Below, piece after piece: positions 1-10,404 of a DNA stretch of 10,404 bases. The stretch spans positions 1 through 10,404 of the forward strand of contig DPSD01000659.1 in the NCBI GenBank assembly GCA_003538495.1, in the 5' to 3' direction. A program made the translations under genes and the position numbers. This DNA comes from Accumulibacter sp. (GTDB lineage Bacteria; Pseudomonadota; Gammaproteobacteria; Burkholderiales; Rhodocyclaceae). Each line of letters starts with the position of its first letter. Position 1 is the first letter of the stretch. The notes below the pieces were generated by a model. It was not told the DNA's origin. It did not search any database and worked only from the letters and a program-made list of their open reading frames with translations.

Positions 1-92
1 GGGCAACGAATAACGTCAAACTCATCGTTCTCTGTGGTAAGAACGCCGGGTACGCTGGGCATGTTTTCCTTTTTGGGTGGGGAGCAAACTGA
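1..92. other. Edge of a neighbouring gene, strand undecided
   Basis: These bases probably belong to a flanking gene, but three readings are open. On the plus strand one frame runs from base 3 to a TGA at 90-92, ending GHVFLFGWGAN, directly abutting the ATG of the ATPase. A second plus frame runs from base 1 to a TGA at 94-96, ending FLGGEQTE, with an ATGA overlap. On the minus strand an ATG at 62-60 is preceded by an AAGGA ribosome site and reads MPSVPGVLTTENDEFDVIRC to the window edge. Purine-N-pyrimidine codon bias favours the first or third reading but cannot separate them, because they share codon boundaries. If plus, the gene is a further member of the ATPase operon. If minus, it is a divergent gene with only about 30 bases for both leaders. 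Confidence 0.4.
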
Positions 93-1700
93 ATGACGCA
101 GACCATCGACGAAGCAGAGATGATCGTCGGTCCGAAGGCTATCGACGCCTACAGCCGGCTTAGCTACACGATGTGGTTCGCGCTGGCCGAGTTCGTCGAT
201 AACTCGACACAGTCGCGACTCAACTACGGCGGCCTGGTCGATAACCTGTTGAAAACAGAAGGCCGGCCGCTGACCGTTTCCATCGTCCACAACCGGCAGA
301 CCAGGGAGATTGCGATTGAGGACAACTCGATCGGGATGACGAAAGACGACCTAATCGCCGCACTGCGCATCGCCAACCCGACCGCTGACAGCCAAGGGCG
401 CTCGAAATACGGTATGGGGATGAAGACTGCGGCCTGCTGGATCGGTGCCATGTGGTCCGTGACCACGTGCGAATGGGGCAGCGGCGAGGAGTGGACGGCA
501 TCTGTTGATGTGAACGCCATCGCCAACAATGGCGCAAGAGTACCGCTGAAGATGCGTACGGTGGATAAGGATGAGCACTACACGCGCATCACGATCACCA
601 ACCTGCGCCGCGTCATTCAAAAACGTTCCGAAGAAACGATTAAAACCTATCTCGGGTCGATGTATATGTTTGACCTGCGGCCCCACGACAAAGGCCAGAT
701 CGCACTCAAGCTGACTTACAACGGTGAGGAAGTAGCTCCTCCGCAAGACAGCGATTGGGACACTGACCCCTCCGGCACGATCATGAAGCGCGACCTACCC
801 GAGCTGGTCATCGAAGGCAAGACGATCACCGGATGGATCGGCGTGCTGCGCAAGGGCGGACGCAAGTTCGGCGGCTTCTCGCTGTTTCAGAACGGCCGCC
901 AGATTCAGGGATTCCCGAACGCTTGGAAGCCGAAGGCGATCTTCGGCGGCGTGGATGACGAGGGCGCGAACAACTTAGTCGCGCAGCGCCTGACGGGCGT
1001 CCTCCAACTCGACGGCTTCGTTGTGTCGCATACCAAGGATGCGATCCTCTTCGAAGGAGAAGAGGAGGACAAGCTGGAACAGTTTCTGGTGAAGGAGACC
1101 AAGGCTTACGCCGACTACGCGAAGAGCCGCCGCGGGCCGGGCAGGGGCCAGAAATGGTCGAAGGATCAGGTGCGCGATCTTGTCAAGAGTATGCAGAACG
1201 AGTTCACAAGTGCGGAGATCAAGGACGCGCTGAACAACGCAGCGTTGCCGCCGCCAGAAACGCTCGCCGCCAACAATCAGCAGCAACTGAAGTCCCTGAC
1301 CACCGAGGACGAAATCGGCCGCCTGGAAATCCTGCCGGACCTGAAGGTCGTTATCTCCCTGAAGGAAACCAGCGAGTGGGAGCCGCACGTCACGTTCGTG
1401 CCCGGAGCCGAGGTCGGTGTACTGCATGTCATCATCAACGGCCTGCACCCCTATTACCAGACGCTTGAGGCAAAGGACTCGATCAATGAGTGCGTGCAGC
1501 AGTACCTCTTCGATGCCGTTGCCGAATTCAAGGCCAGCAAGCTGGTGTCCCGCGTAAACCCGGATAGCGTGCGGCGCCTGAAGAATGACCTGCTGCGTGC
1601 GCGCGCAGCGCAACTGGACAACGCCGACACCGAAGTGAGGGCACAAGCGGAAGCCGATCTGTTTGGCCAAGAAGCTGCCCGCGCCGCCGGCCGGAGTTAG
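93..1700 (+). CDS. GHKL/MORC-like ATPase, predicted defence component
   Basis: This 535-residue protein carries an N-terminal GHKL (Hsp90/MutL/histidine-kinase type) ATP-binding fold. The N box is AEFVDNS (E33 and D36-N37). The first glycine box is DNSIGM (D77, G81, M82), where the usual DxG glycine is serine 79. The lid and second glycine box are YGMGMKTA (G107, G109, K111). Proteins of this kind bind ATP and dimerise, and MutL and MORC members clamp or compact DNA. The C-terminal half has no motif I can name; it contains a charged stretch near 340-360 and a helical, acidic/basic C-terminal tail. GGGGAG at 79-84 precedes this ATG by 8 bases and fixes the start. The helicase follows 9 bases after its stop, so the two are co-transcribed. 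Mismatch-repair MutL is excluded: the GFRGEAL-type motif is absent and the protein is short. ATPase fold is well supported; the defence role is inferred from context. Confidence 0.87.
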   Translation: MTQTIDEAEMIVGPKAIDAYSRLSYTMWFALAEFVDNSTQSRLNYGGLVDNLLKTEGRPLTVSIVHNRQTREIAIEDNSIGMTKDDLIAALRIANPTADSQGRSKYGMGMKTAACWIGAMWSVTTCEWGSGEEWTASVDVNAIANNGARVPLKMRTVDKDEHYTRITITNLRRVIQKRSEETIKTYLGSMYMFDLRPHDKGQIALKLTYNGEEVAPPQDSDWDTDPSGTIMKRDLPELVIEGKTITGWIGVLRKGGRKFGGFSLFQNGRQIQGFPNAWKPKAIFGGVDDEGANNLVAQRLTGVLQLDGFVVSHTKDAILFEGEEEDKLEQFLVKETKAYADYAKSRRGPGRGQKWSKDQVRDLVKSMQNEFTSAEIKDALNNAALPPPETLAANNQQQLKSLTTEDEIGRLEILPDLKVVISLKETSEWEPHVTFVPGAEVGVLHVIINGLHPYYQTLEAKDSINECVQQYLFDAVAEFKASKLVSRVNPDSVRRLKNDLLRARAAQLDNADTEVRAQAEADLFGQEAARAAGRS

Positions 1701-1712
1701 GAGCGCGGCTTG
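1699..1712 (+). promoter_or_regulatory. Ribosome binding site deciding a TTG start
   Basis: AGGAG at 1699-1703 overlaps the ATPase stop codon and lies 6 bases before TTG at 1710-1712. This makes TTG the likely start of the helicase and implies translational coupling to the ATPase. Confidence 0.65.
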
Positions 1713-2864
1713 CCTAAGTTGACGCCCAGAGGCTGGCAGGTCGAGGCGCTCGCGGAATGGGAGCGCGCTAATCATCGCGGGATCGTCAGCGTCGTCACCG
1801 GCGGCGGCAAAACCGTCTTCGCCTTGTCGTGCATCGATCGCATCCGACCGGTTGCAACTCTCATCGTCGTCCCGACCGCCGCACTCCTTGAGCAGTGGTG
1901 GGAAGAAGCCGCAAGCTATTTCGACCTTGGCCTCGACGAGATCAACATCGTCACCGGGAGCTTGCGCTTCCGCCTCGGTGCCATCAACATCGCTGTACTC
2001 AACACGGCTGCGAAATTGGCCGCACTGATGCAGGAGCACAAGTGCTTCCACATCGTAGACGAGTGCCACAAGGCGGCCTCGGAACAGTTCCGAGCGGCGC
2101 TGCAGGTCAACAAGTTTGCGTCGCTTGGCCTGTCGGCAACGCCGGAGCGTCCGTACGACGAGGGTCTGAAGGATGTGCTTGTGCCGGCGCTCGGGCCGGT
2201 CATCTTCACATACGACTATGCCCATGCGCTGCGCGATGGCGTCATCGTGCCGTTCGAACTGCGAAACATCGTGTTCGAGCTGGAAGAAGACCGACAGGCC
2301 GAATACGACAAGTTGAGCAAGGCGATTGCCCGTTCGATCTGCCAGCATGGAGCCGAGGCCGAGGAGACCATCGCCTTATTCCTGAAGCGCGCACGTGTGC
2401 TCAATCTCAGTTTGAATCGAATTAAACTGGCCCTCAAACTTGCAGCAGCGAACCGGGGCAGGCGCACGCTAATCTTTCATGAGGACATAGAAGCCTGCGA
2501 CCTGATCCATGGCGTACTGGTCGACAACGGCGTCAGGAGCGGCGTGTATCACTCGAAGCTGCTGCTGCGGGCCAAGGCCACGATGTTGGGCCAGTACCGT
2601 CGCGGCGAGATCGATGTGCTGGTGACCTGCCGTGCGCTAGACGAGGGCTTCAACGTGCCTGAAACTGAAGTCGGCATAATTGCCGCCAGTACCGCGAGTA
2701 GGCGGCAACGGATTCAACGCCTGGGGCGGGTCGTACGCCCCGCGAAGGGCAAAATCGGCGCGTCGATCTACACGCTCGTCGCCACCGGACCGGAAATCCA
2801 GCGGCTCAAGGAGGAAGAAGAGCGCCTGGAGGGCGTAGCTACCGTGACCTGGAGCCGGGCATGA
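1710..2864 (+). CDS. Small SF2 (DEAD/DEAH, XPB/Res-like) helicase
   Basis: This is a superfamily 2 helicase/translocase of 384 residues with all core motifs. They are a Q-like motif (RGWQVEAL, Q10), Walker A TGGGKT (30-35), motif Ia VVPTAAL, Walker B DECH (117-120), motif III SATP (142-145), motif V with DEGF (311-314) and motif VI QRLGRVVRP (336-344, arginine fingers R340 and R343). The DECH box and QRxGRxxRP end place it near the XPB/ERCC3 and type III restriction (Res) helicases, which translocate on double-stranded DNA. It is almost only the two RecA lobes, with a helical insert near 190-245, so specificity probably comes from partners. Translation starts at TTG behind AGGAG. Its last codons overlap the next gene as ATGA (2861-2864), a sign of coupled synthesis and a shared complex. 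Helicase assignment is firm; the biological role is inferred. Confidence 0.9.
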   Translation: MPKLTPRGWQVEALAEWERANHRGIVSVVTGGGKTVFALSCIDRIRPVATLIVVPTAALLEQWWEEAASYFDLGLDEINIVTGSLRFRLGAINIAVLNTAAKLAALMQEHKCFHIVDECHKAASEQFRAALQVNKFASLGLSATPERPYDEGLKDVLVPALGPVIFTYDYAHALRDGVIVPFELRNIVFELEEDRQAEYDKLSKAIARSICQHGAEAEETIALFLKRARVLNLSLNRIKLALKLAAANRGRRTLIFHEDIEACDLIHGVLVDNGVRSGVYHSKLLLRAKATMLGQYRRGEIDVLVTCRALDEGFNVPETEVGIIAASTASRRQRIQRLGRVVRPAKGKIGASIYTLVATGPEIQRLKEEEERLEGVATVTWSRA

Positions 2865-3649
2865 AGAAACTTCTGACCGGGGAGTGCCATCCGGACAATA
2901 TCTTTGAACTGGTCGATCCGACGCAATTCATCGAAGGCGATTTCGAGGCTGAGGTCGTCAAGGCGCTGTCCTGCCTATTGCCTGAGTACCTGTGTGGGGT
3001 CTTCGCGGGGGCGTTCGTCTTGGAGGGGAAACGTCACGTGGCCGATCTTGCGTTGGTTCAAAGGAGTCTGTCTCACTGGTTCGTCGTCGAAGTCGAGTTG
3101 GCGGGACATTCGCTGGAACGTCATGTATTGCCGCAAGTCCGGTGTTTCCGGTACGGCGATCCAGAGGACACGTGCGTCACGAGTCTGGTCCGAGCCTTCA
3201 ATGTTCTGACGAGGGAACAAGCGGTCTCGCTGCTGAACTACATACCCCGGTATGTGGCGGTTGTCGGCAACCTGCCCGATCCGATCTGGACCGCGAAGCT
3301 GAGCGCCGTTGACGTGCAGCACTTGACGGTATCAGTCTATCAAGACAGGAACGGACGCTCTGCCCATGAGGTCGAAGGCCGCTTGACCGTGCGGGCCGAA
3401 AGCTTGGGCTTCGCGCGTTTCTCAGCGATCGATAACTGCCTACGCATTCCCAGAGGCTGCGGCTTGCCGGTAGGGGACATTCAGATCGTCGATCAGTTTG
3501 GCAACCTTGCCGACTGGACCGTTCGCGAAGACACGGGCGTCCTGTGGATTAGCAAAGACCGCGGCCCGGCGCTTATCGCGCATGACCGCTACGTGCAGAT
3601 CATCAGAAGTTTCGACGGCCGGATTTCCATCCGCCCGTCCTCAGCGTAG
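2861..3649 (+). CDS. Uncharacterised protein, candidate PD-(D/E)XK-like nuclease
   Basis: I do not recognise a named family for this 262-residue protein. The N-terminal half has the spacing of a restriction-endonuclease fold: an acidic helix with E29 and E31 (FEAEVVKAL), a strand ending in D62 (HVADLALV), then the hydrophobic strand FVVEVELAG giving D62-x14-E77-x-E79, and a downstream Q92-x5-Y98 (LPQVRCFRY) recalling the QxxxY motif of RecB-like nucleases. The usual lysine of (D/E)xK is a glutamate, so activity may be altered or lost. Residues from about 165 onward look rich in beta strands and could be a DNA-binding or specificity domain. GGAG at 2851-2854 lies 6 bases before the ATG, which overlaps the helicase stop, so it is the third gene of the cassette. 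Existence of the gene is secure; the nuclease idea is moderate. Confidence 0.8.
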   Translation: MKKLLTGECHPDNIFELVDPTQFIEGDFEAEVVKALSCLLPEYLCGVFAGAFVLEGKRHVADLALVQRSLSHWFVVEVELAGHSLERHVLPQVRCFRYGDPEDTCVTSLVRAFNVLTREQAVSLLNYIPRYVAVVGNLPDPIWTAKLSAVDVQHLTVSVYQDRNGRSAHEVEGRLTVRAESLGFARFSAIDNCLRIPRGCGLPVGDIQIVDQFGNLADWTVREDTGVLWISKDRGPALIAHDRYVQIIRSFDGRISIRPSSA

Positions 3650-3665
3650 CGCAGGGCGCGTTGGC

Positions 3666-3685
3666 CGGCGGCTCTGAGGTCGCCG
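3666..3685. repeat. Short inverted repeat
   Basis: CGGCG (3666-3670) and CGCCG (3681-3685) can pair around a 10-base loop between the convergent gene ends. It may act with the larger palindrome just downstream in ending transcription. Such short GC stems arise often by chance here. Confidence 0.3.
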
Positions 3686-3708
3686 CGAATCGGCCCACCG
3701 CCAGATGC

Positions 3709-3738
3709 CGCACTGCGCGACGGCCGTAGCGCAGTGCG
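3709..3738. terminator. 30-base near-perfect palindrome, possible bidirectional terminator
   Basis: CGCACTGCGC (3709-3718) and GCGCAGTGCG (3729-3738) are exact reverse complements. Between them ACGGCCGT (3720-3727) is itself an exact palindrome, so the whole 30 bases pair except for one G/A position (3719 with 3728). It lies between the convergent ends of the candidate nuclease gene (stop 3649) and the alpha/beta hydrolase gene (stop 3778), the right place for a two-way terminator. There is no T tract on either side, so a Rho-independent role is unproven. A REP-like repeat or an island-boundary element are the alternatives. Confidence 0.5.
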
Positions 3739-3777
3739 CCGTTGCCCGCGTCGCGGCACCGCGCGTGGTAACACCGC

Positions 3778-4416
3778 TCAGTGCCGCCAGGCGCGCGTGA
3801 CAATCTCGCGGATCAGATGCAGGCGGCGGTGGAAGAAGTGGTCGGCGCCGGGGACGACGATCACCGGCAAATCGAGCGGCTCCGCCCAGTCGATGACGTT
3901 GGCCAGCGGCACGGTGCTGTCCTTGGAGCCGTGGATGACGATGGTGTCGGCTGGCACGGCCTTGGTGTGGTAGCGGCGCGCGCCTTCGACGAAACCCGAG
4001 GCAGTGCCGACCAGCACCAGCCGCTGCGCCGGATGGCCGGCCTCGAGCAGGGCCTCGGCGACGCGCGTCTGGACATAGGCGCCAAAGGAAAAGCCGGCCA
4101 GGGCGACCGGCAGATTGCCGAAGCGGCACTTGGCTTCGGCGAGCACCGCCAGCAGGTCTTCGGTTTCGCCGCGGCCGTCGTCGTGCGTTCCCTCGGTCAG
4201 GCCGATGCCGCGGAAGTTCGGCCGCAGGGCGACGTAGTCGAGATGGTTGAAGGTGCGCGCCAGCGTCTGGACGACCTTGTTGGTGTTGCCGCCGCCGAAC
4301 AGTGGGTGCGGGTGGCCGATCAGCGCAATGCCGCGGGGCGCACCGGGGTTCTCGACGAGGACATCGATCCTGCCTGCCGGCCCGTCGATCAGGATATGCT
4401 CGGGCTGAATTTTCAT
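3778..4416 (-). CDS. Alpha/beta hydrolase, COG2945-like
   Basis: This 212-residue cytoplasmic protein is a small alpha/beta-fold hydrolase. The catalytic triad is readable: serine 110 in the nucleophile elbow GFSFGA, aspartate 166 in HGSKDSTVP, and histidine 193 in GADHFF. The GHPHPLFGG motif (34-42) and RPNFRGIG (65-72) are hallmarks of the COG2945 group, short hydrolases distantly related to dienelactone hydrolases with no settled substrate. There is no lid domain, signal peptide or membrane segment, and length matches the family. AAAGG about 7 bases upstream supports this ATG. It follows the ferredoxin gene on the same strand after 70 bases, so the two are probably one operon. The fold and triad are clear; the natural substrate, likely an ester, is unknown. 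Confidence 0.9.
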   Translation of the reverse strand: MKIQPEHILIDGPAGRIDVLVENPGAPRGIALIGHPHPLFGGGNTNKVVQTLARTFNHLDYVALRPNFRGIGLTEGTHDDGRGETEDLLAVLAEAKCRFGNLPVALAGFSFGAYVQTRVAEALLEAGHPAQRLVLVGTASGFVEGARRYHTKAVPADTIVIHGSKDSTVPLANVIDWAEPLDLPVIVVPGADHFFHRRLHLIREIVTRAWRH

Positions 4417-4486
4417 CGCTAGGCCTTTCTTGTACTGGCGTCGCCAACGGGAAGTCGCCGGCCGTGCACCGCACTCTTCAGGGCGT

Positions 4487-4795
4487 TCAGATGCGCAACC
4501 GGTCGACGACCCGGCCGTGCACCAGGTGTTCCTGGATGATTTCCTCGATGTCTTCGCTGTCGACGTAGCTGTACCACACCGCCTCCGGATAGACCACCAG
4601 CACCGGCCCGCTGTCGCAGCGGTCCATGCAGCCGGCCTTGTTGATCCGCACCTTGCCGACGCCCTTGAGCTTCAGTTCGCCGATCCGGTCCTTGGCGTAG
4701 GTCTGCGCAGCCGTCGCGCCAGAGTTGTTGCAGCAAGTCTCGCCCGGTCCGCGTTGGTTGCAACAGAAAAAGACATGGTGCTTGAAATAGCTCAT
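4487..4795 (-). CDS. Thioredoxin-like [2Fe-2S] ferredoxin
   Basis: This 102-residue protein belongs to the thioredoxin-fold [2Fe-2S] ferredoxins (COG3411), related to the NuoE subunit of complex I and exemplified by Aquifex Fd4. The cluster ligands are C11 (or C12), C22 (or C21), C56 and C60; the last pair sits in the diagnostic GCMDRCDSGP. The following VLVVYPEAVWY and the C-terminal HLVHGRVVDRL also match the family, and length is normal. Such proteins carry one electron in the cytoplasm, but the partner here is unknown. Extra cysteines next to C11 and C22 make each N-terminal ligand a CC pair, so which one binds the cluster is open. AAGGAG 9 bases upstream fixes the start; a longer upstream frame lacks homology-like sequence. 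It leads a probable operon with the hydrolase. Confidence 0.94.
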   Translation of the reverse strand: MSYFKHHVFFCCNQRGPGETCCNNSGATAAQTYAKDRIGELKLKGVGKVRINKAGCMDRCDSGPVLVVYPEAVWYSYVDSEDIEEIIQEHLVHGRVVDRLRI

Positions 4796-4804
4796 ACGAA
4801 TAGG

Positions 4805-4810
4805 CTCCTT
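4805..4810 (-). promoter_or_regulatory. Ribosome binding site of the ferredoxin gene
   Basis: On the minus strand these bases read AAGGAG, 9 bases before the ATG at 4795. This strong match selects that start over in-frame starts further upstream. Confidence 0.75.
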
Positions 4811-4836
4811 CGCTCGTTTGCCTGCGTCCACGGTCG

Positions 4837-4863
4837 ATTCTAACCCTGATTCGGCCGGCGCAA
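4837..4863 (-). promoter_or_regulatory. Possible sigma-70 promoter for ferredoxin-hydrolase operon
   Basis: Reading the minus strand, TTGCGC (4863-4858) and TAGAAT (4842-4837) are separated by 15 bases. The -10 box matches the consensus at five of six positions, the -35 box at three. Transcription would start near 4830, giving a leader of about 35 bases that contains the ribosome site. The short spacer makes this tentative. Confidence 0.35.
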
Positions 4864-4968
4864 GAGCGTCGCCGGGAGGCCGAACGGCGCTTTCCTTCCA
4901 GGAGCCCGGGGTGGGCTCGCCGATCGGGTAAGATGCGTGTTTGCCGAGGCAGCCGCAGGCTCTTGCTT

Positions 4969-5001
4969 GGTCGGCGCCGCGCAGCGCCGGCCGGACCGAC
5001 C
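4969..5001 (+). repeat. Inverted repeat in the leader of the DnaJ-like gene
   Basis: GGTCGG (4969-4974) pairs with CCGACC (4996-5001). Overlapping it, CGGCGC (4972-4977) pairs with GCGCCG (4984-4989), so two alternative stems compete. It lies 38 bases before the co-chaperone start. A TAAGAT box at 4929-4934 could be a -10 element, but I see no matching -35. A regulatory role is speculative. Confidence 0.3.
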
Positions 5002-5039
5002 ACCGATCATTCCACCATTTTCCGCCATTCAGCCATTCG

Positions 5040-6116
5040 ATGCGTACTCGTGACGACCCTTTTGCCATTCTTGGCGTAGCCAGCGATGCTTCACCCGCGG
5101 AAGTCAAACGGGCCTACCGCCGGCTGGCGATGCACTGGCATCCCGATCGCAACCCGTCGGCGGCGGCCGAGGCCGAGTTCAAGCGCGTCCATGCCGCCTA
5201 CGAGCTGTATTGCGACCCGCAGTGGCTGGCCGAGTGGCAGCAGGCAGCCAGTGCCGCGACCGACAGCGGCGCGTCCGGCGGAGAACCCGGCGAGCCTGGC
5301 GGCGAAAGCAGCGGCAAGAGGAGCGGCAACGGTGCCGCTGCGGATTTCACGGAGGTCATGACGCTGACGCTGGAGGAGGCGGCGCTCGGTTGCAGCAAGA
5401 CGGTCGACCTGGTGCACAGCGTGCGCTGCGCCAACTGTCGCGCCAGCGGCCGCGTGCAGCATCGCAATTCGATTCCCTGCAAACGCTGCAACGGCTGCGG
5501 TCGGGTCGGCGGCGGGGCTGGCGGGACGAGTGTCTGTACCGGCTGTGCCGGCCGCGGCTACCTGCGCGAGAGCGATTGCCCGGCTTGCACCGGCAGCGGC
5601 TGGCTGCGCCAGTCACGCACCCTGGCGGTTACCGTGCCGCCGGGCCTGCTTGACGGCGAGCGCCTGCGCCTGGCTCGCCAGGCGCCGCTGCGGCCCGGCG
5701 ACGAAGGCGCCACGGCCGGCGACCTGTACCTCGAAATCAGGTTGGCCAGGCATCCGCTGTTTGTCCTGCGCGGGCGCGACGTCCATTGCCGGGTGCCGGT
5801 GAGCATCTACCGCCTGCTCTGCGGCGGACGTATCGAAGTGCCGAGCCTGAGCGGCACGACGACGCTGGAGCTTTCCCCGTACCCGCAGCACCCGCTCGAG
5901 TATCGCCTGCGCGGGCAGGGGTTTCCCCATCAACGGCGGCGCGCGGCCGGCGACCTGGTGCTGCAGCTCGAGCACATTCACCCGGCGAGCATCGGAGCCA
6001 CGGACGTCGAACTGCTCGAGCGACTCGAAGTACGCCTGGCCAGCGATCTGGAGCAGCGGGCACCGCAGTTGGCGGCTTGGGAACAACAACTGCGCGCGCG
6101 CCGCAACCCGGCCTGA
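5040..6116 (+). CDS. DnaJ-type (class A-like) Hsp40 co-chaperone
   Basis: This 358-residue protein has the full order of a class A J-protein. The J domain (about 5-68) holds HPD at 34-36 within MHWHPDRNP, the site that stimulates the ATPase of DnaK. A Gly/Ser/Glu-rich linker (77-98) replaces the usual Gly/Phe region. A zinc-finger domain has four CxxC pairs (C130/133, C147/150, C166/169, C180/183), and a C-terminal substrate-binding region follows with VTVPPGLLDGERLRL and GDLYLEI. The first zinc repeat reads CANCRASG, departing from CxxCxGxG. It is shorter and more divergent than housekeeping DnaJ (about 375 residues) and no dnaK or grpE lies nearby, so it is probably a paralogue for special clients. 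I chose the ATG at 5040 because the J domain begins just after it; a TTG at 4941 would add an unsupported extension. No AGGAG-like site precedes the ATG. Confidence 0.9.
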   Translation: MRTRDDPFAILGVASDASPAEVKRAYRRLAMHWHPDRNPSAAAEAEFKRVHAAYELYCDPQWLAEWQQAASAATDSGASGGEPGEPGGESSGKRSGNGAAADFTEVMTLTLEEAALGCSKTVDLVHSVRCANCRASGRVQHRNSIPCKRCNGCGRVGGGAGGTSVCTGCAGRGYLRESDCPACTGSGWLRQSRTLAVTVPPGLLDGERLRLARQAPLRPGDEGATAGDLYLEIRLARHPLFVLRGRDVHCRVPVSIYRLLCGGRIEVPSLSGTTTLELSPYPQHPLEYRLRGQGFPHQRRRAAGDLVLQLEHIHPASIGATDVELLERLEVRLASDLEQRAPQLAAWEQQLRARRNPA

Positions 6117-6144
6117 GCGCCGGTCGCCGCCGGCCGGTGTCGCC

Positions 6145-7278
6145 TTACAGACGGCGGCCGAGGGCGGTCAGATACGGCAGGGCGAGAAAAGGCCACAGGC
6201 TCGCGGCCCAGCGGGTCAGCCCGTTGAAGTTGAGAAAGTGTCCCTGGCGCCAGGTCGCCAGCGCGGCTTCGGAGTAAGGATTCGGCGGCGTCAGATTGAC
6301 CAGCGCGGTACCGGCCATCAGCGCGACGCCGGCCAGGGCAATCCGGTGCGCCGCCGGCAGCAGCAACATCAGCGACAGCAACACGCCACCGATCAGCAGG
6401 CCCAGCCGGGCTCCGGGGGTCAGCCAGGCCAGCGCGTCCTGCGGCGCGACCAGGACCGAGGCGGCGAGTGTCCTGATGGCCAGCGCCAGGACGAAAAGAC
6501 AGATCAGAAGCAGGTGCGGATAGCTCCGATCGATCAGCAGCGCGCGCCCGAAAAGGCCAATGACGATGGTGTTGCAGACGATGACGCCGGTTTCCAGGAC
6601 GAAGAACGCCGGTGCGGCATAGGGCACCGCCGGCGTCAGCCCCAGCACCTGGCGCAGGTCGCCGACACCGAACAGCAGGGTTTCCGGTGACAGCTGCGTC
6701 AGCAGCCAGATGCCGAGCAGCACCAGGCCGAGTTCGGCTTGCGGGATCGGCGCCAGCCAGTCCTGCTGAAAGCGAGCGATGCGCCGAATGATCGCCTTGC
6801 CGCTCCACACCGCAAGCACCGCGCCGATTGCGCTGCCGGCGGTGTTGCACGCCAGATCGACATTCGACGGCACCCGCGTCGGCAGCCAGTTCTGCAGACA
6901 TTCCATGGCCAGGCTGAACAGGCTGCCAAGCAACAGCGCGGCGATCGCCGCGGACCAGCGGCCAGGCAGGCGGCGCAGGGTCAGCGCCAGCAGGAAGCCC
7001 AGCGGCAGGTAGACGATGACGTTGACCGAGAGGTCGAAGCCCGTCCAGTAGCGCGGCCAGCCGGCGTCGAGAAACTCCAGCGGCGAGATGCCGAGATCGC
7101 GCCAGTTGGCGAAGGGGTACAGGCTGGCGTAGCTGATCAGGACCAGGTAAGCGAGTGTCAGGTACAGCGGCAGCCGCGTCGGCTGCGGCAGCCCTGGTCG
7201 CGCCTCGGTCTCGTCCGCCGGGGGCGCTGGCTGGGCCGGGGTGGGTGGTGCTTGCTCCATCAGCGTGGCGTCGAGCAT
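6145..7278 (-). CDS. VanZ-like polytopic membrane protein
   Basis: This 377-residue inner-membrane protein starts with a proline/alanine-rich cytoplasmic tail (about 1-36), followed by about nine or ten hydrophobic segments. The VanZ core sits in the first half: LSVNVIVYLPLGFLLAL, then MECLQNWLPTRVPSNVDL and CNTAGSAIGA, the conserved EXXQ...R..D..N..G pattern of the family. The second half adds five or so extra segments beyond the roughly 160-residue minimal VanZ protein, an extended form seen in proteobacteria. VanZ was named for teicoplanin resistance, but most bacterial members have no proven substrate and resistance should not be inferred. It converges on the DnaJ-like gene 28 bases away and diverges from the plus-strand run. 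A second ATG at 7260 is an alternative start; neither has a good ribosome site. Confidence 0.85.
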   Translation of the reverse strand: MLDATLMEQAPPTPAQPAPPADETEARPGLPQPTRLPLYLTLAYLVLISYASLYPFANWRDLGISPLEFLDAGWPRYWTGFDLSVNVIVYLPLGFLLALTLRRLPGRWSAAIAALLLGSLFSLAMECLQNWLPTRVPSNVDLACNTAGSAIGAVLAVWSGKAIIRRIARFQQDWLAPIPQAELGLVLLGIWLLTQLSPETLLFGVGDLRQVLGLTPAVPYAAPAFFVLETGVIVCNTIVIGLFGRALLIDRSYPHLLLICLFVLALAIRTLAASVLVAPQDALAWLTPGARLGLLIGGVLLSLMLLLPAAHRIALAGVALMAGTALVNLTPPNPYSEAALATWRQGHFLNFNGLTRWAASLWPFLALPYLTALGRRL

Positions 7279-7290
7279 TGTGAAGCAGGC

Positions 7291-7318
7291 ATTCTAGCGC
7301 CTCGTGGCGATCGCCACG
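7291..7318 (-). promoter_or_regulatory. TAGAAT box and 16-base palindrome before the VanZ-like gene
   Basis: On the minus strand TAGAAT (7296-7291) resembles a -10 box. Just upstream, the exact palindrome at 7303-7318 (CGTGGCGATCGCCACG) covers most of where a -35 box would lie, with no -35 match of its own. That geometry suits an operator or activator site. A start at about 7284 would leave only some 6 bases before the ATG at 7278, so either the message is nearly leaderless or the ATG at 7260 is used. The remainder of this 254-base divergent region shows no promoter I would defend for the plus-strand genes. Confidence 0.35.
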
Positions 7319-7520
7319 GTGATGATCTCTGGTGCCGCCCGGGATCGGGTTCGGCTGCAAGGATGATCTCGCCGCGTCAGTCTGCCGCGCGCTCGGTGCC
7401 GCTGGCGGTCGTCGGGGGCACCAGCGATATTCCACGCGATCAACATCCGGCGCCGCTGCGGTGGCGATTTGTGCGACACTTTGATCTTTCAACTTGCCCC
7501 GGCCGCCAACACGGCCATCT

Positions 7521-7535
7521 GGGAGACACGCCTTG
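7521..7535 (+). promoter_or_regulatory. Ribosome binding site deciding a TTG start
   Basis: GGGAG (7521-7525) lies 7 bases before TTG at 7533-7535. It selects the start reading MAKPNYQFEKRQ over an in-frame ATG at 7494 that would add an unlikely proline/arginine-rich leader. Confidence 0.65.
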
Positions 7536-7718
7536 GCAAAACCAAATTACCAGTTCGAGAAGCGCCAGAGAGAAATCGAGAAGAAACGCAAGCAGGAGGA
7601 AAAGCGGCAGTTGGCGCTTGCCGCGAAGGCCGCAGCGGACGGCGACGCTTCGCCAGGCTCGGCCGAGCCGGCTGCGTCGACCGAATCCGAAGGCGCGGCG
7701 CCGACGACCGGCAGCTGA
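7533..7718 (+). CDS. Small lysine-rich conserved hypothetical protein (MAKPNY type)
   Basis: This 61-residue protein reads MAKPNYQFEKRQREIEKK in its first 18 residues, then KRKQEEKRQLALAAKAAA, then a flexible Gly/Ala/Ser/Glu tail. The MAKPNY-FEKRQRE start followed by a Lys/Glu/Arg helix is one I recognise as a widespread small hypothetical protein of beta- and gammaproteobacteria; its function is not known to me. The basic amphipathic helix suggests binding to RNA, DNA or another protein. The TTG start is chosen for its ribosome site and the family-like beginning. It lies 28 bases before the glycosyltransferase gene and may be co-transcribed with it. It has no signal peptide or membrane segment. 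Confidence 0.75.
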   Translation: MAKPNYQFEKRQREIEKKRKQEEKRQLALAAKAAADGDASPGSAEPAASTESEGAAPTTGS

Positions 7719-7746
7719 GCGACGCGGCCTGGCGGTATCGGGCGTC

Positions 7747-8916
7747 GTGGCGCTGACTTTTCTGCTGCTGTGCGCGCCCGGCTTGCTGGTTGCCGCTGCC
7801 GGCCTGCTGGCCGGCTTCGTCTTTCTGGCGGGCTTGCGGCTGCCCAGGGTGCAGCGTGGCGGGGTGGTCACGCTGATCCTGCCGCTGACCGGCGAGGCGA
7901 GGGGGCTGCTCACCCTGCTGCGGGCGATCGAAGCGCAAACCCTGAGTCCGCGGCGCTTGTTGATCTGCGTCGAGAGCACTTTCGACCCGGCTTACGCCAG
8001 AGCCACCCGGATGGCGGGCGAAACGCGGTTGCCGGTCGACGTGGTGATTGCCGGCGAGGCGACCAGCTGCGCCCAGAAGTGCCGTAATCAGATCGCCGGG
8101 CTGCAGCGCATCGATGGCCGCGACGAAGTGGTGGTCCTGCTCGACGCCGACATCGTGCCGCCGCCATGGTGGCTGTCGGCGCTGGCTTCGCCGATCGTCG
8201 ACGGCAGCGCCGACATCGTCACCGGCTACCGCTGGCCGACGATCGGGAGCGGGCGGCTCGGTGCGCACCTGGCCGCGGCGATCGACCGCGGTATTGCCCT
8301 GCTGCCGCGTCTGGCGGTCTTCCACGTCACCTGGGGAGGGTCGCTGGCGATGTCGCCGCGCACCCTGAAACGACTGCAGGCGGAGCGCATCCTGGCCGAA
8401 ACGCTGTCCGACGACTGCACCATCGGCGCGCAGGCGGCGACGCTCGGGCTGCGGGTGTTGACCCGGCGCGCGCTGCTGGTTCCGACGCCGGCGGCCGACG
8501 GCGTGGCGGCGCTGTGGCGTTTCGGCCGCCGGCAGTACCAGATCATTCGCGTCTATCGCCCCGGCCTGTGGTGGCTGGCGCTGCTGGCAGTGAGCGCCCG
8601 GCTGGCTGCCTGGGGCGTCCTCGTGATGCACCTGGAGGACCGGTGGGCACGCCTGGCGATCGGCGCGCTGCTCGGCGCGGCCTTGCTGGCAGCCGCTCTG
8701 CAGGCGCTGGCCGGGCGGCGCCTGGGTTTTCCCGAGCCGCCGGCTGTCCGCCTGGCGCAGCTTGCGCTGTGCGCCGGCAAGCCGCTGGTGGACCTCTTCC
8801 ACTGGACCCTGGTGCTCGCCGCCAGCGACGCCCGCAGCATTCGCTGGGGTCATCTCACCTACCGGGTTTCCGGTCCGGCACGGATCGCCGTCAGCAGGCG
8901 CCGGCCATGGCGCTGA
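7747..8916 (+). CDS. Membrane-anchored GT2/GT21-like glycosyltransferase
   Basis: This 389-residue protein has one N-terminal membrane segment (about 2-30), a GT-A glycosyltransferase domain and at least two C-terminal membrane segments (about 272-320). This is the shape of ceramide glucosyltransferase-like (GT21) and hopanoid-associated HpnI enzymes, which move a sugar from a nucleotide sugar to a lipid at the cytoplasmic face. Visible motifs are VTLILPL at the domain start, the metal-binding D133-A-D135 in VVVLLDADIVPP, TWGGSLAM (195-202), a D222-D223 pair in LSDDCTIG as likely catalytic base, and Q265-x-x-R268 followed by valine where (Q/R)xxRW has tryptophan. GTG at 7747 is the first usable start in frame, with a weak ribosome site. 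The gene overlaps the P450 by 10 bases. The fold is firm; donor and acceptor are unknown. Confidence 0.85.
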   Translation: MALTFLLLCAPGLLVAAAGLLAGFVFLAGLRLPRVQRGGVVTLILPLTGEARGLLTLLRAIEAQTLSPRRLLICVESTFDPAYARATRMAGETRLPVDVVIAGEATSCAQKCRNQIAGLQRIDGRDEVVVLLDADIVPPPWWLSALASPIVDGSADIVTGYRWPTIGSGRLGAHLAAAIDRGIALLPRLAVFHVTWGGSLAMSPRTLKRLQAERILAETLSDDCTIGAQAATLGLRVLTRRALLVPTPAADGVAALWRFGRRQYQIIRVYRPGLWWLALLAVSARLAAWGVLVMHLEDRWARLAIGALLGAALLAAALQALAGRRLGFPEPPAVRLAQLALCAGKPLVDLFHWTLVLAASDARSIRWGHLTYRVSGPARIAVSRRRPWR

Positions 8917-10404
8917 TGCTGTCGCTGGCGGGCCGTCTGGCCGGTCGCTCGCGCTTCCTGACGCGCATCGCCGGGCGCCTGGTGGCGCGCGAGTTGCGGC
9001 AGCTCAAGGGCAAGCCGGTCGAGCGCCAGTTGCTGGTCTACGACCTTCCGGAAACGCAGCTGGCGCTGGCCAACGACCTGCGCCTCGTCGATACCATCCT
9101 CAGCGATCGTGCCGGCAGCTTCCCCAAGGCCAGGGCCCTCGAGCGCCTGCTGCGGCCGCTGATCGGCGGCGGCGTTTTCGGCCAACCGGGCGGCGACCCG
9201 GTCAGGCAGGCGCGGCGGCTGTTCGTGCGGGCGCTGACGCGGATCCCCGAGCAGCGGGTCACGGCGGTGGCCACCGCAGTGACCCGCGCCTATCTCGCCG
9301 ACTGGCAGCAGGCCGGCCGCCCGGTGGCGATCCCCAGCGAACTGTCGCGGCTGACCATCGACATCGTCAGCGAGGCCAGCCTCGGGACCCGCTTCACGGC
9401 GGCCGAGGGGCGGCGCTTCGTCGAGCTGTTCTTCGAGTATCACCGGCGGGTGAACCCGGTCCTGCTGCTGCTCGGCAGCCAGGACGACGCCGGCCAGCAG
9501 GCGCTGGTCGAGCGCATGGGGCTGGCGGCGATCGGCGCCGAGATGCGCGAGCTGATCAGGCGACGCTTCGTCGTGCCGCTGCTCGACGCCGCCCCGGAGG
9601 GTGGCCAGGCTCCGTTCGCCACCGCCTTGCTCGAAGCTGCCGCCGCCAGCGCGGGGGCCGATCGAACGAGCGCCCCGGACGACGCCCGGCAGACCGCGAT
9701 GCTCGACGAGATCGCCGTGATGCTGCTCGCCGGGCATGAGACCACGGCGTCGGTCCTGAGCTGGCTGCTGTGGGAGCTGGCCGAGGCGCCAGCCGAGCAG
9801 GACGAAATGGCGGCGCTGATCGCCACCTCGACGGTCGCCAGCACGCTCGCCGACGGTAGGGCTGACGCGGCCGTGACCCGGCGCCTCGGCGCGCTGATCC
9901 AGGAGGCGCTGCGCCTCTACCCGCCGATCGCCTTCCTGTTGCGCCAGACCACCGAGGCGGTGACCTTTCGCCAGCGGCCGATCTGCGCCGGCGGCTACGT
10001 GGTCGTCTCGCCGTGGACGATTCAACGCCACCGGGCGCTGTGGCCGCAGCCGGATCGCTTCGATCCGGCACGCTGGCTGGCCGCCGAGCCGCCGGCCGCG
10101 ACCGCCGACCGGCTGGCGATGATTCCCTTTGGCTACGGCCCCCGGGTCTGTCCCGGCAAGCGCTTCGCCGAGGTCGAGATGCACGCCATCCTCGGCGAGC
10201 TGCTCGGCGCCTGCCGGATCGCCCGTACGCGCAGCCGCTGGGCAGCCTCACCTCACGGCCCGACTGCGACTTCCGCTTGCACGTCAGCGCGCGCGGCGCG
10301 GCGCCGGCTGCGGTCGTGCCGGCAGCCGCCGGGTCAGCCGGGTCACCGCTGCCGGCGTGGCCGCTCACCGGCCGGCCCCGGCTGCGCCAGGGGTGCGGTG
10401 TTTC
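8907..10404 (+). CDS. Cytochrome P450, frameshifted near its C-terminus, partial
   Basis: This is a soluble bacterial-type cytochrome P450, a heme-thiolate monooxygenase that inserts oxygen into organic substrates with electrons from redox partners. It shows the I-helix oxygen-activation motif AGHETT (275-280), the K-helix ExxR E333 and R336 in EALRLYPP, the meander WPQPDRFDPARW, and the heme loop FGYGPRVCPG (408-417) with C415 as iron ligand. It reads cleanly from the ATG at 8907, which overlaps the glycosyltransferase stop, to about 10223. From about 10226 the expected P450 ending (PLGSLTSRPDCDFRLHVSAR) appears in another frame, one base early, consistent with loss of a single base between about 10215 and 10226. 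Either frame stays open to the window edge, so the true end is outside. No ferredoxin or reductase for it is adjacent. The P450 call is certain; the substrate is unknown. Confidence 0.92.
   Translation, partial: MALMLSLAGRLAGRSRFLTRIAGRLVARELRQLKGKPVERQLLVYDLPETQLALANDLRLVDTILSDRAGSFPKARALERLLRPLIGGGVFGQPGGDPVRQARRLFVRALTRIPEQRVTAVATAVTRAYLADWQQAGRPVAIPSELSRLTIDIVSEASLGTRFTAAEGRRFVELFFEYHRRVNPVLLLLGSQDDAGQQALVERMGLAAIGAEMRELIRRRFVVPLLDAAPEGGQAPFATALLEAAAASAGADRTSAPDDARQTAMLDEIAVMLLAGHETTASVLSWLLWELAEAPAEQDEMAALIATSTVASTLADGRADAAVTRRLGALIQEALRLYPPIAFLLRQTTEAVTFRQRPICAGGYVVVSPWTIQRHRALWPQPDRFDPARWLAAEPPAATADRLAMIPFGYGPRVCPGKRFAEVEMHAILGELLGACRIARTRSRWAASPHGPTATSACTSARAARRRLRSCRQPPGQPGHRCRRGRSPAGPGCARGAVF

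Follow-up and report, generated by a model that had tools for sequence, protein, structure and literature searches.

What do the three coupled genes at positions 93-3649 of a DNA stretch from Accumulibacter sp. encode, and do they make up a complete system? The stretch, hereafter the window, comprises 10,404 nucleotides of contig DPSD01000659.1 (assembly GCA_003538495.1, forward strand), and an earlier note had read the three genes as a candidate undescribed defence cassette of a GHKL ATPase, a superfamily 2 (SF2) helicase and a nuclease-like protein, with no methyltransferase in view. Rereading the open frames, we find the three genes, their strand and their coupling as that note gave them: all lie on the plus strand, as do all features of positions 1-3649 mentioned below, at 93-1700 (535 residues), 1710-2864 (384 residues, TTG start) and 2861-3649 (262 residues), with a 9-base gap between the first two and an ATGA overlap between the last two. 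The contrast in composition with the flanking genes also holds, the GC content being 0.596 over 1-3649 versus 0.700 over 3650-10404. However, the three genes are most likely the last three of a four-gene operon that begins with a methyltransferase gene, and we propose that the operon probably encodes an ATP-dependent restriction-modification system consisting of a methyltransferase, a MORC-like GHKL ATPase, an XPB-like helicase and a nuclease-B3 protein. This function is predicted from gene content, coupling, co-inheritance, sequence families and motif conservation, with the domains of the third protein (ORF3, for open reading frame 3) assigned by predicted structure only.

The first gene of the proposed operon is cut by the edge of the window. 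The window opens 92 bases ahead of the GHKL start, and the translation of frame 1, GQRITSNS..., runs on from the very first base to a TGA at 94-96 that overlaps the GHKL ATG at 93-95. These 31 codons and their stop (1-96) are likely the C-terminal tail of an N4/N6 DNA methyltransferase. Among the best 120 of 7,567 relatives of the methyltransferase from a related locus, L001, the typical C-terminus is SxGRFGxRITSDS, and against a position-specific profile made from 116 of those 120 C-termini the tail scores 12.9, a value reached in 11 of 20,000 dinucleotide shuffles; among 213 other plus-strand pieces of the window the highest score is 8.8. The identification relies on this profile test and not on plain local alignment, in which the 31-residue tail gave no significant match (up to 35 with methyltransferases, up to 37 with control GHKL and ORF3 proteins, up to 44 for shuffled tails). 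Frame 3 of bases 3-92 is open as well, but the match to the methyltransferase C-terminus is in frame 1, and on that ground frame 3 was rejected as a candidate for the upstream gene. In L001 an N6_N4 DNA methyltransferase gene lies 54 bases upstream of the GHKL gene, and in another locus, L008, the two genes overlap by one base (5388). The L001 enzyme matches M.PvuII, an N4-methylcytosine (m4C) methyltransferase (1boo), at 9.7e-74, and the general type II methyltransferase model of PADLOC at 4.2e-87. We take the methyltransferase of the system to be PvuII-type, a sequence relation established for the L001 copy, the window copy being visible only as the likely 31-residue tail. Given that the gene is very likely cut by the window edge and is present in 3/3 fetched loci with the complete trio, the reported absence of a methyltransferase is very likely an edge artefact, and the argument built on it, that self/non-self discrimination would need another basis, is not supported.

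Genome surveys with ORF3 found relatives in 2 of 369 genomes (single protein), 4 of 398 (profile; two of the four matches cover the N-terminal domain only), 1 of 7 and 1 of 385, in samples that overlap. Five distinct loci came from the surveys, and all four genes are present in three of them, L001, L004 and L008; a search with the GHKL protein led to a single genome contig, L001 (one relative in 19 pattern matches). L008 carries the methyltransferase (4399-5388), GHKL (5388-6965), helicase (6970-8118) and ORF3 (8103-8903) genes in this order, and L004 has them permuted as methyltransferase, helicase, ORF3 and GHKL, with identities of 67% for the methyltransferase (to that of L001), 42% for the helicase, 35% for the GHKL protein, and 44% over 80 residues or 27% over the whole alignment for ORF3. 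As to surroundings, an AbiEi/AbiEii toxin-antitoxin pair lies directly ahead of the methyltransferase gene in L001 (1115-2969), a tyrosine integrase gene followed by an uncharacterised 345-residue protein and a HerA-like ATPase lies behind the operon in L008 (9415-14805), and the L004 operon sits among housekeeping genes.

We also compared lists of the best 120 of 342 (ORF3), 1,654 (GHKL) and 7,567 (methyltransferase) matches, with the same size of the longest contig as the only stand-in for contig identity. By this proxy ORF3 and GHKL share 39 entries, ORF3 and methyltransferase 29, and GHKL and methyltransferase 38, where 500 chance draws gave means of 0.98, 1.3 and 1.0 and maxima of 5, 6 and 6; 18 entries are common to all three lists, the chance value being available for pairs only. 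Pairwise distances of the shared pairs correlate (r 0.66, 0.62 and 0.45; 0/5,000 permutations each), to which common host ancestry may add. The co-occurrence check called for by the earlier note thus came out in its favour: the genes travel together, with the full set in three loci and shared entries far above chance. Scans of viral contigs, two with ORF3 and one with the GHKL protein, yielded no relative of the former and a single partial relative of the latter; viral contig L011 carries an apparent C5-methyltransferase gene and then the first part of a GHKL relative (32%), cut short by the contig edge (3410-5070). The GHKL protein had no match among phage records, and ORF3 none among plasmid records.

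The GHKL protein (93-1700) matches HATPase_c_3 (PF13589) with 93.5 bits and 1.5e-26 (cut-off 25), and residues E33, N37, D77, G81, G107, G109 and K111 are invariant in 17/17 rows of an alignment, A5, that includes the L004 and L008 proteins, which bears out its earlier assignment as a GHKL ATPase. The N-box asparagine N37 (201-203) is also invariant in the 30 rows of alignment A2. By its sequence the protein has one of the features of the prokaryotic MORC proteins described in 2008, a GHKL domain with conserved ATP-binding motifs (PMC2292703). The published signature of the MORC S5 domain is GhXhhpXXRhl (PMC2292703), and the window protein carries the near match GFSLFQNGRQI at 873-905. The signature is exact in 1/124 GHKL relatives, that of L004, and fits 124/124 with two positions freed; in 5,000 shuffles of the window protein it was exact in 42 and present in relaxed form in 183. 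Among the window, L004 and L008 proteins, that of L004 alone matched Morc6_S5 (PF17942), and its 18.0 bits fall short of the 26.2 cut-off.

The second protein (1710-2864) is a minimal XPB/Rad25-like SF2 helicase, with ResIII and Helicase_C both above cut-off, as the description of a minimal DECH-box helicase had implied. The TTG start of its gene (1710) recurs in L001 (5845). Walker A, TGGGKT with K34, lies at 1797-1814 and the DECH box, residues 117-120, at 2058-2069. Residues 4-368 match archaeal RAD25/XPB (2fwr) at 1.3e-30, and the PbeA model is matched at 8.1e-71, spanning profile positions 250-644 of 672 only. Motif placement in the earlier note, including N37 of the GHKL protein, was correct; overlooked were the upstream gene tail at 1-96 and the C-terminal domain of ORF3.

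ORF3 (2861-3649) is predicted to be a two-domain protein of restriction type. It has no Pfam, PADLOC or NCBIfam match, and a PDB sequence search with its profile gave none. A first model was poor over much of the N-terminal part; separate modelling of residues 1-176 from a wider alignment gave a PD-(D/E)XK fold with a pLDDT (predicted local distance difference test) of 94; the domain covers about residues 20-176 (2918-3388). Its structure matches have modest scores and are mostly what we take to be PD-(D/E)XK superfamily nucleases. Residues 177-262 (3389-3646) are modelled as a B3-type DNA-binding domain, with the N-terminal domain of LlaJI.R1 among the B3-like matches, so that ORF3 would join a PD-(D/E)XK fold to a DNA-reading domain. 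B3 is presumably equivalent to the domain elsewhere called VP1/RAV.

Foldseek ranks the XPB-Bax1 complex first among matches to the nuclease domain, though weakly (E 0.016), and this raises the question of whether the operon serves DNA repair or chromosome maintenance, similar to MutL-type repair or to archaeal XPB-Bax1, with strand or origin information supplied by the methyltransferase. The helicase is indeed XPB-like, NucS/EndoMS repair nucleases share the fold of the ORF3 domain, and L004 lies among housekeeping genes. However, ORF3 is rare and patchy across the surveyed genomes, the operon is lower in GC than its surroundings, AbiE and integrase genes are among its neighbours, and B3 is the site reader of the restriction enzymes R.CglI and R.NgoAVII (PMC4267653). 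We regard a repair role as quite improbable.

The nuclease-like domain carries a D...ExE motif, with D62 at 3044-3046 and E77-V78-E79 at 3089-3097, in which glutamate takes the lysine position. In the 35 rows of alignment A4, which includes proteins with other C-termini, D62 and E79 are invariant (35/35) and E77 is kept in 34/35. The ExE form is known from the active enzyme BamHI. The earlier description of a degenerate PD-(D/E)XK signature is therefore right as to the fold, by predicted structure, but too strong in the word degenerate, and an inactive nuclease was considered as the main reading and dropped. The replaced lysine nevertheless speaks for a defence that works by modification without cleavage, in which the methyltransferase marks self, unmarked DNA is kept from replicating by the ATPase, helicase and B3 protein, and the nuclease fold acts only as a DNA grip. 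The related PbeA helicase comes from a system reported to leave viral DNA intact (PMC6459918). On the other side stand the conservation of the motif and the fact that non-cleavage by Pbe is itself disputed (PMC10853773), and we consider such a mechanism unlikely.

In the remaining two of the five loci, stand-alone proteins share only the N-terminal D...ExE..HS...H..PQ domain of ORF3, one with a C-terminal DUF5655 (L009:8000-9004, minus strand) and one with a C-terminal RAMA domain (L010:1150-2076, plus strand). Neither locus has a GHKL or helicase gene among nearby open reading frames of at least 150 residues. Because its C-terminal partner differs between these proteins, the nuclease-like domain looks, by sequence comparison, like a module whose DNA reader can be exchanged. 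RAMA is linked to modified DNA, and its fusion to the same domain would fit a type IV-like system directed against modified phage DNA, with the methyltransferase as an accessory or decoy, as would the LlaJI.R1 domain among the B3-like matches. Given that ORF3 of the window has B3 and not RAMA, and that the methyltransferase is kept in 3/3 complete loci, we find this very unlikely.

How, then, does the proposed restriction-modification system relate to known ones? Prokaryotic MORC/paraMORC restriction operons were outlined in 2008 by Iyer, Abhiman and Aravind (PMC2292703), and the link drawn to them earlier was right: they share with our set a GHKL-S5-like ATPase, an SF2 helicase, a restriction-fold nuclease and a methylase, and an operon with the last three is found in L001, L004 and L008. 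Their type 1 shares the Rad25-like helicase, and a VP1/RAV domain is noted in type 2 neighbourhoods where ORF3 has B3 (PMC2292703). However, the Rad25-like helicase of the 2008 operons is commonly fused to the nuclease, whereas here the nuclease-B3 protein is encoded apart from the helicase, alongside a PvuII-like methyltransferase. CglI and NgoAVII (PMC4267653, PMC5737866) share a separate methyltransferase, a nuclease-B3 protein with the nuclease N-terminal, and an SF2 ATPase, and ORF3, by its predicted structure, likewise places B3 on the nuclease subunit. Membership of CglI was considered and dropped. In VcSduA, a Shedu protein that begins with a GHKL domain and was tested against phages, a GHKL ATPase is also coupled to a PD-(D/E)XK nuclease, but as one fused protein with DUF4263, and the paper does not use the term helicase (PMC12137116). 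PbeABCD (roles in PMC10853773) shares the helicase core, but its HKD/PLD part is lacking on the window helicase, on which ground membership was dropped. Its CxC ABC ATPase and DndE-like gene do not occur among the four slots of L001, L004 and L008, whose flanks were not profile-searched for them.

Mza was likewise dropped, in agreement with the earlier note, as the GHKL protein is not of MzaB type (19.6 bits with NCBIfam, cut-off 850; 0.024 with PADLOC). Mza also includes an AIPR protein; none was seen among the genes read, although no search was aimed at AIPR and the upstream side of the window is missing. To our knowledge, enzymes of the EcoRII, UbaLAI and BfiI type need no helicase or GHKL partner. 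A further locus, L013, has the same gene order and a related GHKL protein (32% over 331 residues), but a C5 instead of an N6_N4 methyltransferase, and its helicase and nuclease have no significant similarity to those of the window. The defence-tool check bore out the claim that the set has no established name, as no model in PADLOC 2.0.0 or NCBIfam 20 names the four genes together. The combination was not found among the literature matches listed, in a search mostly outside subscription journals and with the 2008 paper judged by its text, and the review PMC12707154 makes no mention of MORC, GHKL, CglI, NgoAVII or Rad25. Neither the parts nor the general idea is new; what seems new is this combination, a variant that differs from the 2008 MORC/paraMORC operons as the text of that paper describes them.

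In the mechanism that we propose, the PvuII-type enzyme would mark host recognition sites with m4C, as its family suggests, and the modelled B3 domain of ORF3 would locate sites that are unmarked. The XPB-like helicase would then use ATP to move on or open the DNA, while a dimer of the MORC-like protein, by analogy with its family, may close on DNA as an ATP-gated clamp and join distant complexes. Finally, the PD-(D/E)XK domain with its D...ExE site would cut the foreign DNA. Going further, we tentatively suggest, with slightly less than even confidence, that the system is a separate class of ATP-dependent restriction-modification, in which m4C methylation, B3 plus D...ExE cleavage, an XPB-like motor and a MORC-like clamp are spread over four polypeptides organised around the slot of the MORC-like ATPase, with methyltransferase, helicase and nuclease being swapped for unrelated equivalents across bacteria.

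The rest of the window (3778-10404) holds ordinary-looking genes, among them an alpha/beta hydrolase (Pfam), a weak ferredoxin-like match below cut-off and, by reading only, DnaJ-like, glycosyltransferase-like and P450-like frames.

In plants and animals, MORC proteins take part in the silencing of genes and transposons. For their bacterial relatives a role in restriction systems was predicted in 2008 (PMC2292703), and no study of the biochemistry of a bacterial MORC protein was among the literature matches listed, the nearest being the GHKL-Shedu fusion VcSduA (PMC12137116). The window also illustrates how a stretch of DNA viewed in isolation can conceal the very gene by which a system is understood. 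The four-gene set is compact: the chemistry of its methyltransferase is known, its nuclease carries a modular site reader and its motor is minimal, and therefore recognition site, methylation and cleavage would all be measurable. If it does form a separate class, it would provide a bacterial model for how MORC ATPases act on DNA.

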